Source: Opitutia bacterium (GTDB lineage Bacteria > Verrucomicrobiota > Verrucomicrobiia > Opitutales > Opitutaceae). Taken from it: a DNA stretch of 64,000 nucleotides. Position 1 is the first letter of the stretch; each line of letters opens with the position of its first letter. The notes beneath the pieces are model-generated. The model saw only the letters and a list, made by a program, of their open reading frames with translations, made no database searches and was not told where the DNA came from. The stretch lies in assembly GCA_947452315.1 (NCBI GenBank), contig CANGCX010000003.1, positions 1 through 64,000 of the forward strand, written 5' to 3'. Shown here piece by piece: positions 48,003-51,986 of this stretch. The translations under genes were made by a program, and so were the position numbers.

Positions 48003-49226
48003 ATGCCCTACACTGAAGATCGCTCCGCCTGGTATGAAGGCCAAGGCCTCTGGCAACATGTCCCCGCGAGCGACTGGAACGATTGGGTTTGGCAGCTTAA
48101 GAACCGTCTGACGAGCGTCGCCCAGCTCGAGGAGCATATGACGCTGACCCCTGATGAGAAGGCTGGATGCCTCTTCGCCAGTCACAAACTCGCCCTAGCG
48201 ATCACGCCGTACTTTTTTAATCTTATAGACCGTAATGACCCGCAATGTCCTATTCGCCAACAGGTGATTCCGCGCGGTGGGGAAGCGATCCTCAGCGAGG
48301 AAGAGACGCTCGATTCACTCGGTGAAGACGAACATTCACCGGTCCCTGGTTTGGTGCATCGTTATCCTGATCGCGTGTTATTTTTGGTGACCGATAGGTG
48401 CGCTGCGTATTGCCGCTATTGCACGCGAAGCCGTCTGGTTTCCAACGCTCAGGATTACAATTTTCACCCCGAATTTGAGCAAGGGCTGCGCTACATCGAA
48501 AATCATCCGGAAGTCCGCGATGTGCTGATTTCAGGCGGTGATCCGTTGCTGCTGTCGGATAAGAAACTCGATCACTTGTTCGGGCGATTGCGCGCGATCA
48601 AGCATGTGGAGTTTATTCGAATCGGCTCGCGCATCCCGGTGTTTTTACCGCAGCGCATCACGCCGGAGCTGTGTGAGATTTTTAAAAAACACGGGCCGAT
48701 CTGGATGAGTATCCATACTAATCACCCGAAGGAAGCTACAGCGGAGCTACGGGCTGCGTGCGAGCGCTTGTCGTTCGCTGGTGTGCCCCTAGGTAACCAG
48801 ACGGTTTTACTCAAAGGCATCAACGACGACGTCGAAATCATGAAGGCTCTTATGCACCGCTTGTTACGGATGCGGGTGCGGCCTTATTATATCTACCAAA
48901 TGGATCTGATTACGGGTGGAGCACACTTCAAAGTGGATGTGCGCAAAGGTATCGAGATCATCCGAGCTTTACGCGGGCACACGACGGGTTACGCCGTACC
49001 GCAGTACGTGATCGATGCACCGGGTGGCGGGGGCAAGGTACCCATCAATCCCGACTACGTCGAAAAAATCTCCGATACCGAGGTCGTATTCCGCAATTAC
49101 GAGGGCCAGCAATTTCGTTATCCGCTGACGCATACGCCGCGTCCGGCTGGAAATGATGGAGAATTATCCGGAGTCGGTGCTCCTGAAGCTTCCTCAGGGC
49201 TCGCCTCTTCTATCTTTAAGGACTGA
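48003..49226 (+). CDS. kamA: lysine 2,3-aminomutase family radical SAM enzyme
   Basis: CAAYCRYC radical-SAM motif, DVLISGGDPLLL, VQYVIDAPGGGGKVPINP-type PLP region. Confidence 0.88.
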   Translation: MPYTEDRSAWYEGQGLWQHVPASDWNDWVWQLKNRLTSVAQLEEHMTLTPDEKAGCLFASHKLALAITPYFFNLIDRNDPQCPIRQQVIPRGGEAILSEEETLDSLGEDEHSPVPGLVHRYPDRVLFLVTDRCAAYCRYCTRSRLVSNAQDYNFHPEFEQGLRYIENHPEVRDVLISGGDPLLLSDKKLDHLFGRLRAIKHVEFIRIGSRIPVFLPQRITPELCEIFKKHGPIWMSIHTNHPKEATAELRAACERLSFAGVPLGNQTVLLKGINDDVEIMKALMHRLLRMRVRPYYIYQMDLITGGAHFKVDVRKGIEIIRALRGHTTGYAVPQYVIDAPGGGGKVPINPDYVEKISDTEVVFRNYEGQQFRYPLTHTPRPAGNDGELSGVGAPEASSGLASSIFKD

Positions 49227-49260: not shown

Positions 49261-49410
49261 AGATTTTTTTGAGCGTTTTGCGCTTTTCCGCATCTATCTC
49301 CGTGCAGTTAGCCACGTCCTGGTAAGACGCTGGTCGTTAGCAGTTCTTAAGGTTTGCTTGGTGTTAGGTCACAAGAGCCGTCCCTTAATCGGGGCGGCTT
49401 TCGTGTTTTC
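49261..49410 (+). ncRNA. candidate structured RNA, copy A (promoter-like block + hairpin + linker + terminator)
   Basis: High similarity to copy B 192 bp downstream; hairpin CCACGTC-CTGGTAA-GACGcTGG; 19-nt invariant GGTTTGCTTGGTGTTAGGT; terminator 49376-49399. Confidence 0.72.
49376..49409 (+). terminator. intrinsic terminator, copy A
   Basis: AGCCGTCCC-TTAATC-GGGGCGGCT 9-bp stem followed by TTTCGTGTTTT. Confidence 0.7.
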
Positions 49411-49452
49411 AGAGGGCGAACAGGGTGAAACAGCGTCACCTAATTTATTTTT

Positions 49453-49605
49453 AGATTTTTTTGAGCGTTTTGATTTTTAGCGCATCTATCTCCGCGTAGT
49501 CACCATCGTCCTGGTAAGACGATGCAGGTTAGTTGTTTTATACGGTTTGCTTGGTGTTAGGTTACACGAGCCGCTCCTTCATCGGGGGCGGCTCTTGTGT
49601 TTTTA
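49453..49605 (+). ncRNA. candidate structured RNA, copy B
   Basis: Same 20-nt 5' block, GCATCTATCTCCG, hairpin CATCGTC-CTGGTAA-GACGATG, same 19-nt linker, terminator 49568-49594. Confidence 0.72.
49568..49604 (+). terminator. intrinsic terminator, copy B
   Basis: GAGCCGCTCC/GGGGCGGCTC 10-bp stem followed by TTGTGTTTTT. Confidence 0.75.
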
Positions 49606-49671
49606 GGTGGCTGGCCGTGTTTGAAGGTTTTTCTTGCCAGTTGGCTCGGGACGCCGCTTTTTCCGCATCGC

Positions 49672-49766
49672 CTGTAGGGGTGTCTTCCGCGGAAGACTGA
49701 GATTGCGGCGCGATTCGGCCGTTGGACCCTTCGAACCTGAACGGATCATGCCGACGAAGGAAACAG
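49672..49766 (+). promoter_or_regulatory. TPP (thiamine pyrophosphate) riboswitch, THI element
   Basis: TAGGGGTGTC...GACTGAGA...ACCCTTCGAACCTGAACGGATCATGCCGACGAAGGAAA matches conserved TPP aptamer segments; terminal CTGT/ACAG pairing. Confidence 0.93.
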
Positions 49767-49767
49767 C

Positions 49768-49789
49768 AGGCGCGGATTGCGCCTTTTTT
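49768..49789 (+). terminator. terminator 1 of TPP riboswitch expression platform
   Basis: AGGCGC-GGATT-GCGCCT followed by TTTTT. Confidence 0.8.
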
Positions 49790-49847: not shown

Positions 49848-51986
49848 ATGAAACGTCCCTACCTAATCTTCCTCTCGATTATCGCCGCTTTTTCGGCGAT
49901 TTCTCTCGTGCACGCCCAGGCGAACTCGCCAACGGCATCCGCGCCGACGGTTACACTCGCTCCGGTGCTCGTTACAGCGGATCTGTGGGCTTCGCCGTTG
50001 GCGAAGTTACCCGCGAGCGTTACGGTGTTTGACGATGGCGCGCTGCAGGCCGGTGGGGTGCGGCACTTTGGTGATTTGGCAGATCAAATCTCGAATCTCA
50101 CGTGGACCGGCGGCACTTCACGGCCGCGTTACTTTCAAATCCGTGGCATCGGCGAAAATTCCCAATACGAGGGCGAAACTCCCGATTCTGCTGTGCGCTT
50201 CATGGTCGACGATATGGATTTCACGGGTCTTGGCACGCTCGGTGGCACATTCGATGTGAGCCAAGTCGAGGTGTTGCGCGGGCCTCAGGCTGGGGCCTTT
50301 GGCGCGAATGCCGCAGGCGGCGTCATCAGACTCGTGACCAACGCGCCGACACCGTTCTGGACGGGACGCGTCGAGACCAACGCCGGCCAAGACGCCTTAC
50401 GCGAAGGTGGTTTCGCAATCGGTGGACCGCTCGTCACGGCTAACCCAGAGCGCTTTATGGTGCGCCTCGCTGTGCACCAAAGTAACAGCGATGGCTTTCG
50501 CCGCAACGTCACTCTCAACCGTGACACCAACGCCCGTGACGAATTCACCGCTCGCCTCCGATTCAGTGCCGTGGTCTCGCCTGTTTGGCGCTGGGAAGGC
50601 TCCGTTTTATATTCAGATGTGAACAACGGCTTTGACGAATTCGCGCTCGATAACAACGGCCGCCGCACCTTTAGCGACCAACCCGGCCGTGACGAGCAAC
50701 GCTCCACGGCCGCCAGCCTTCGTGGTACCTACTCGGGACTGGCTGGCGCGCGCCTCACGTCCGTGACCGGCGGCAGTCGCGTTAAATCCGTTTACTCATA
50801 CGATGATGATTGGACCGCCGCGTCGTATGCTGGCTTTAGTGACCTTCGACGTACGCGCTTGGTCTTCAATCAAGAACTTCGCCTCGATTCTGTCGCTACG
50901 CGCGCCGCGCTCGGTTGGATCGATCGTTGGACGCTCGGCGCATTTTTCACCAACACCGACGAAACCAGCTCCTACACCGATAAGGATCCCTATGACCTAC
51001 GCGGTCTCAATACCCGTTATAACGCCGACAACTTCGCTCTGTTTGGTCAGATCGCGCACGATCTGGCGGCGCACACGCGTTTGATAGTGGGCCTCCGTAC
51101 TGAGCGCGTTAATCTCGACGGCAGGGGAACGAAGATCCGCTATCGGGCCTCGCGTAGATCTTACGATCCGGAAGTCACGTTCCGTCCGTTTTTTGATGAT
51201 ACGCTTCTTGGTGGCAAGGTTACCCTCGAGCATGATCTCACGACGGCCGTGCTCGCGTTTGCCTCCGTCACGCGTGGCTACAAGGCTGGCGGTATCAACA
51301 TCGACGCTCGTATCAGCCCCCCGGCCGATCCGCTCACCTACGGCACCGAGCAACTCTGGAACTACGAAGCCGGTTTTCGCGGCCAAGCGATGGACCACCG
51401 GCTCACGGGTGAAATCACAGTGTTTTACCTCGATCGAACAGACACGCAGGTACGCGACTCCGCTGGCTTCGGTGGCAACTATCGCTTTTTCACCGCCAAC
51501 GGCCGCAGCGCCCATGTCGCCGGCTTCGAGGCCGCCGCGACCTACGCCGTTACGCCGGCATGGTCGTTCCGCGGCACGCTCGCTCAGATGAGTTCGCAGC
51601 TTGATCCGTTCAAGCTCACCAACGGCAATACGGGCGGTGGTCGCACCCTGGCAAATACCCCGCGCTACGGCTATACGTTTGGCACTCATTTTCACCAGGC
51701 TGGTACGGCGGGAGTTTTTGCCCACGCCGAGATTGTTGGCCGAGCTACGCAATTCGACTCGAATAACCAGAACGAGGCCCGCCGTGCGTTCCATCTTTAC
51801 AACGCCAGCCTCGGTTACGCTTGGCAGCAATGGACGTTTACGGTTTGGGGTAAAAATTTGCTCAACACGCGCTACGAGAAACGCGTGTTCTACTTCGGCA
51901 ACGCCGATCCTGATTACATCGAGACGCGCTATGAAGCTCGCGCCGATCCACGCCAGCTCGGGGTTAGCGCTTCGTACCGTTTCTAA
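49848..51986 (+). CDS. TonB-dependent outer-membrane receptor (predicted thiamine/thiamine-precursor uptake)
   Basis: Signal peptide MKRPYLIFLSIIAAFSAISLVHAQ, plug domain VEVLRGPQAGAFGANAAGGVIRLVTN, C-terminal ...LGVSASYRF; start reset to ATG 49848 downstream of the TPP riboswitch. Confidence 0.92.
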   Translation: MKRPYLIFLSIIAAFSAISLVHAQANSPTASAPTVTLAPVLVTADLWASPLAKLPASVTVFDDGALQAGGVRHFGDLADQISNLTWTGGTSRPRYFQIRGIGENSQYEGETPDSAVRFMVDDMDFTGLGTLGGTFDVSQVEVLRGPQAGAFGANAAGGVIRLVTNAPTPFWTGRVETNAGQDALREGGFAIGGPLVTANPERFMVRLAVHQSNSDGFRRNVTLNRDTNARDEFTARLRFSAVVSPVWRWEGSVLYSDVNNGFDEFALDNNGRRTFSDQPGRDEQRSTAASLRGTYSGLAGARLTSVTGGSRVKSVYSYDDDWTAASYAGFSDLRRTRLVFNQELRLDSVATRAALGWIDRWTLGAFFTNTDETSSYTDKDPYDLRGLNTRYNADNFALFGQIAHDLAAHTRLIVGLRTERVNLDGRGTKIRYRASRRSYDPEVTFRPFFDDTLLGGKVTLEHDLTTAVLAFASVTRGYKAGGINIDARISPPADPLTYGTEQLWNYEAGFRGQAMDHRLTGEITVFYLDRTDTQVRDSAGFGGNYRFFTANGRSAHVAGFEAAATYAVTPAWSFRGTLAQMSSQLDPFKLTNGNTGGGRTLANTPRYGYTFGTHFHQAGTAGVFAHAEIVGRATQFDSNNQNEARRAFHLYNASLGYAWQQWTFTVWGKNLLNTRYEKRVFYFGNADPDYIETRYEARADPRQLGVSASYRF

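Follow-up and report, generated by a model that had tools for sequence, protein, structure and literature searches.

Sibling sRNAs such as the Qrr RNAs of Vibrio and LhrC of Listeria are encoded in near-identical copies that share one seed and often lie in tandem. GcvB is a longer, single-copy, Hfq-dependent RNA, and its promoter is of another type than that of the Opitutaceae RNA described here. The likeness between the two lies in the seed, as GcvB also directs a GU-rich single strand against CA-rich sequence upstream of the start codons of transport genes (PMC3879156). Other described counterparts stand under extracytoplasmic function (ECF) sigma factors. The Escherichia coli sigma-E sRNAs MicA, RybB and MicL are short RNAs with a terminator, more than one of which is made from the same type of promoter and which repress outer-membrane proteins at the translation start (PMC8103513, PMC4651636), and SabS of Acinetobacter is a SigAb-dependent sRNA that belongs directly to a small ECF regulon (PMC12153292).

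The Opitutaceae RNA resembles MicA, RybB and MicL in a promoter of ECF-like appearance (GA[AG]C ... [AG]TCTAT), its short predicted transcript that ends in a terminator, the presence of more than one candidate sRNA behind the promoter type and the predicted repression of outer-membrane proteins at the translation start. It differs from them in that it has no sequence or structure match to them in Rfam, that it is multicopy with one invariant seed, and that TonB receptors and secreted proteins, not porins, are its candidate targets; moreover, the three RNAs depend on Hfq in E. coli, whereas no Hfq was found in 61 Opitutaceae genomes. There is no homology to GcvB and no known sequence relation to SabS, which belongs to a different phylum. 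Qrr and LhrC differ in sequence, promoter type and taxonomic range, and the Opitutaceae RNA is modular, with long and short forms and a 5' hairpin that is optional.

Two tandem RNA copies between kamA and a TonB receptor gene

The window, a stretch of 64,000 nucleotides from an Opitutia bacterium (assembly GCA_947452315.1, contig CANGCX010000003.1, positions 1 to 64,000), carries two tandem copies of the element, with a kamA homologue (48003-49226) on one side and a TonB receptor gene (ATG at 49848) on the other. Domain assignments (LAM_C and radical SAM for KamA, Plug for the receptor) confirm both neighbours as named in the initial annotation, which made no mention of a TPP riboswitch at 49666-49779 (+ strand; 59.5 bits, Rfam RF00059) between the RNA pair and the receptor gene. 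The position of this riboswitch directly 5' of the gene at 49848 suggests a thiamine-related receptor. A TPP riboswitch adjoins the RNA copy at another locus (L234) too.

The near-gapless duplication reported in that annotation is present, with the copies in register at offsets of 192, 193 and 194 nt (192-193 had been given), and all of the identical blocks quoted there are found in the sequence. A search of the window's genome with copy A recovered copy B at 81% identity (E = 8e-35). The unit had been described as an RNA element of ~150 nt; it is a structured RNA, but its predicted transcript is shorter, ~105 nt, as the first ~38 nt of the unit (its 5' third) are a conserved promoter. The features of the two copies are as follows.

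49269..49275, + strand: copy A, -35-type box TTGAGCG (fixed-spacing motif TTGARCG-N16-RTCTWYC)
49292..49298, + strand: copy A, -10-type box ATCTATC (fixed-spacing motif)
49299..49409, + strand: copy A, sRNA region (covariance model R1, 115 bits)
49312..49333, + strand: copy A, hairpin 1, CCACGTC-CTGGTAA-GACGcTGG (covariation, helix 1)
49351..49369, + strand: copy A, invariant single strand GGTTTGCTTGGTGTTAGGT, proposed seed (conservation in 170 copies)
49370..49409, + strand: copy A, terminator hairpin and T-run (terminator prediction, covariation)
49461..49467, + strand: copy B, -35-type box TTGAGCG (fixed-spacing motif)
49484..49490, + strand: copy B, -10-type box ATCTATC (fixed-spacing motif)
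49491..49603, + strand: copy B, sRNA region (covariance model R1, 118 bits)
49504..49524, + strand: copy B, hairpin 1, CATCGTC-CTGGTAA-GACGATG (covariation)
49544..49562, + strand: copy B, invariant single strand, proposed seed (conservation)
49563..49603, + strand: copy B, terminator hairpin and T-run (terminator prediction, covariation)

The true 5' end of the copy A RNA probably lies at about 49302-49305.

Both hairpins covary

The RNA consists of an optional hairpin 1, a near-invariant single strand GGUUUGCUUGGUGUUAGGU and a terminator. In an alignment of 32 sequences, 65 double-change cells were counted, against 18.3 +/- 3.7 in shuffled and 4-21 in slid controls, and 13 of 20 pairs changed on both sides. 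With 97 distinct sequences all 20 pairs did so (388 cells, compared with 105 in shuffled and at most 59 in slid controls), in an alignment that was fitted to the covariance model and hence leans towards it. At the same pairs of hairpin 1, C-G, G-C, U-A and A-U all occur; its apical loop is variable, and the hairpin is absent from some copies. The second hairpin is an intrinsic terminator, of which each copy has one. The element is thus an RNA, with strong covariation in both hairpins. The hairpin with the loop CTGGTAA proposed in the initial annotation is real, and the two compensatory stem-pair changes claimed between copies A and B hold provided that one C is bulged in copy A. Almost all positions of the invariant strand are conserved in at least 96% of 170 copies, a set partly gathered with the same motif.

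A small protein had been considered implausible, and our results agree: the only sense frames are of 24-55 amino acids from TTG and none is conserved, the copies differ by indels and the paired columns change together.

Long and short forms

Short paralogs of ~70 nt are found at other loci and consist of the promoter, GTAGTTC..GGTTTGCTTGGTGTTAGG and the terminator, without hairpin 1. Among the 167 copies with a promoter call, 109 are long, 18 intermediate and 40 short. A third copy in the window's own genome is of the short form (contig C31, 8711-8728, minus strand; L336, about 2273); it escaped both BLAST and the first covariance model.

A family confined to Opitutaceae in the genomes sampled

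A DNA search of 100 relatives gave matches in 40, every one of them in Opitutaceae. Covariance model R1, which was built from the RNA part alone (32 sequences), matched 187 of 252 Opitutaceae genomes in 34 of 49 genera, with 1-4 copies per genome. An order-wide sample of 293 genomes, Opitutaceae included, yielded one weak match outside the family (30.8 bits), which has neither the promoter nor the seed and was taken as chance. In an exact 19-mer scan over 85,000 species, the matches listed bore only the titles Verrucomicrobia, Opitutia/Opitutae, Opitutaceae, Opitutus, Lacunisphaera, Rariglobus, Ereboglobus and the like. From this distribution, the window most probably belongs to an Opitutaceae genome.

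The sole family that reached its gathering score in an Rfam 15 search of the window was TPP, and the best other matches were at chance level, lax thresholds (E <= 10) included, which bears out the earlier impression of an RNA unlike any known family. At the divergent paralog loci only tRNA and TPP matches were obtained, and a literature search found no paper on an Opitutaceae sRNA, just as none was found in Rfam. A previously unlisted structured small-RNA family, confined to Opitutaceae in the genomes sampled, is well supported by these results. The covariation, far above both kinds of control, and the homologues throughout the family, for both of which checks had been proposed, likewise favour the suggestion that the two copies are sibling sRNAs.

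Recurrence at several loci, also in tandem, would equally be expected of a mobile or recombination element that acts as DNA and is no RNA gene. We consider this highly improbable, given the compensatory changes in two hairpins, the fixed order of promoter and terminator modules and the few copies per genome; no transposase or target-site pattern was noticed.

Conserved promoter-like boxes at nearly all copies, and the genomic context

The boxes TTGARCG-N16-RTCTWYC (at most 2 mismatches, spacing of 16 nt) are found at 153 of 170 non-redundant copies, against a background of 28 in 915 windows, and a spacing of either 16 or 17 nt accounts for 167 of 170. Taken singly, 17 nt was matched by 15 of 170 copies and the other neighbouring spacings by 0-4, while the pattern with N14, which serves as the spacing control, matched none. 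The spacer between the boxes shows little sequence conservation. Mostly 14 to 59 nt separate the -10 box from the invariant segment while the boxes stay 16-17 nt apart, so that promoter and RNA core form separate modules. A search for sigma-70-type promoters gave none. The boxes can be read as GA[AG]C and [AG]TCTAT; for comparison, the -35 element of E. coli sigma-E is GGAACTT (PMC8103513), and the -10 elements of Bacillus subtilis SigX and of SigAb are CGWC and CGTT, respectively (PMC12153292). From the resemblance in box sequence and spacing, the promoter is probably of the ECF sigma type.

At two loci (L014, L017), an A/T-rich inverted repeat, CTCAAAAAAA..TTTTTTTGAG, lies just upstream of the -35 box and has the T-run that precedes TTGAGC as one of its arms; it may be the terminator of kamA, or else a regulator site that overlaps with the promoter.

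Of the 162 copies with enough flank, 116 have a kamA homologue on their own strand no more than 1.5 kb upstream, and the locus is therefore often syntenic. Together with the terminator at the end of each copy, this would suit a cis-acting element, either the 3' UTR or terminator of kamA or the leader of a downstream gene. Against such an origin, which we judge improbable, every copy comes with conserved promoter-like boxes of its own and ends in a terminator, and copies in tandem are complete units. Many copies have neighbours other than kamA, and copies without kamA occur at many other loci. A leader or riboswitch would be expected to precede one kind of gene, always on its own strand; the downstream genes vary in identity and, as far as the rough ORF calls show, in strand, and no more than 10 of 130 copies are followed by a TonB homologue within 1.5 kb.

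Other segments behind the same promoter

Searches with the promoter pattern (13 genus members; 23 genomes) revealed a recurrent site upstream of rsmE that is followed by a different short conserved segment, AGTTACCCGTTCTTTTTAGG ... GTTTGTAGTT ... AAGTCGG, and a terminator (L219-L224, L296, L299, L301, L302). At several loci it lies beside a divergent tRNA gene. It had no match in Rfam and is a candidate for a different sRNA with a shared promoter. Some of these copies have GTTTGTAGTT in common with the first RNA in its long form. A search of the window's own assembly, which is 84% complete, did not recover the rsmE-linked RNA. Two single terminator-ended segments also lie behind the promoter pattern, in L295 (around 1718, minus strand) and L300 (around 1988, minus strand); the former has a variant seed, TTGGTTTGCTGGTTGA, and is from a genome without any covariance-model match. 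Four other pattern matches (L297, L303, L304, L305) fall inside or close to open frames and seem to be chance matches, and the recurrent conserved TTGAACGARGCGATGCARAAA...TTGTCTATC matches were left out as probably coding sequence. A structured small-RNA family with its own promoter class is well supported.

Predicted targets and the role of the invariant strand

We infer that the locus holds two sibling genes for a trans-acting antisense sRNA that represses a subset of outer-membrane proteins, a reading that we hold to be reasonably probable; the transcription, the sigma factor, the pairing and the repression in it are all deduced from sequence. Each copy would be transcribed from its own alternative-sigma promoter, TTGAGCG-N16-ATCTATC, probably of the ECF type, and transcription would stop at the intrinsic terminator of the copy. 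In the resulting RNA, hairpin 1 and the terminator hairpin would flank the single-stranded GGUUUGCUUGGUGUUAGGU, whose GU-rich sequence is predicted to pair with CA-rich mRNA at or just upstream of start codons. The targets would be mRNAs of some secreted and outer-membrane proteins, TonB-dependent receptors above all, and the pairing would block ribosome loading with no need for Hfq.

Hfq (PF17209) was found in none of 61 Opitutaceae genomes and in 5 of 14 control genomes, E. coli and B. subtilis among them, a result that leaves room for another RNA chaperone. Candidate targets were sought as complements of the invariant segment with at most 3 mismatches in 22 genomes, with target prediction covering stretches of the genomes. 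The strongest match lies 14 nt before the ATG of a gene for a secreted DUF11 protein (L340, genome G166), with 18 contiguous pairs and -31.6 kcal/mol, a value reached by 0 of 1000 shuffles; a TonB receptor gene of genome G015 is matched 11 nt before the ATG (-25.3 kcal/mol, 0 of 1000 shuffles). In three more genes for Plug-domain proteins the seed complement spans the ATG; the TonB receptor start regions matched are those of L343, L352, L364 and L371. The receptor adjacent to the RNA pair was rejected as a target (-12.9 kcal/mol, 676 of 1000 shuffles).

Among genes picked regardless of complementarity, 11 of 87 TonB starts fell within the top 5% of shuffled seeds, compared with 8 of 339 controls (2/151 secreted, 6/188 other; Fisher p = 2.6e-4), the control starts being less reliably called than the TonB starts. 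Dinucleotide shuffles gave a smaller excess (9/87 TonB, 5/151 secreted controls), and the reversed seed, a neighbouring segment and the rsmE-linked RNA reached the top 5% at 0-1 of 87 TonB starts each. The mean RNAduplex energy over all TonB starts was no better than that of shuffles (z = -0.8). When mismatches were counted, the initial set of 67 TonB genes gave a significant result (16 against 7.4), whereas 20 further TonB genes did not (2 against 2.0). No more than a subset of the TonB receptors can be targets. The start regions of the TonB receptors (L383-L472) are CA-rich, and in many of them no obvious Shine-Dalgarno sequence is seen.

The invariant segment might instead be a site for a protein, in an RNA that acts as a sponge or in a 6S-like manner. 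Near-invariance across paralogs and species is unusual for a seed whose targets shift, even if the collection is partly biased by the exact-motif search, and the average pairing test was not significant and Hfq was not found. On the other side, the excess of strong pairing at TonB starts is specific, being absent with the reversed seed and other segments, and Rfam shows no likeness to 6S or other protein-sequestering RNAs, so that we regard a protein-binding RNA as unlikely. Antisense repression of outer-membrane receptors is the best mechanism on offer, with moderate support.

Significance

sRNA regulation has hardly been charted outside Proteobacteria and Firmicutes. The Opitutaceae RNA is widespread, with a testable seed, candidate targets and a promoter class that it shares with a second candidate sRNA. 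More tentatively, Opitutaceae may possess a promoter class and an alternative sigma factor that drive mainly small RNAs, the largest group of which (1-4 copies per genome) would be an Hfq-independent antisense sRNA repressing TonB-dependent receptors through an invariant seed. In a phylum for which hardly any sRNA regulation has been described, such a circuit would have arisen independently as a counterpart to the envelope circuit of sigma-E, MicA and RybB. As Hfq was not detected, the family offers a system for studying Hfq-free antisense sRNAs that act on transcripts without an obvious Shine-Dalgarno sequence. It also bears on the control of TonB receptors, which Opitutaceae possess by the dozen (28-70 Plug proteins per genome in five genomes).
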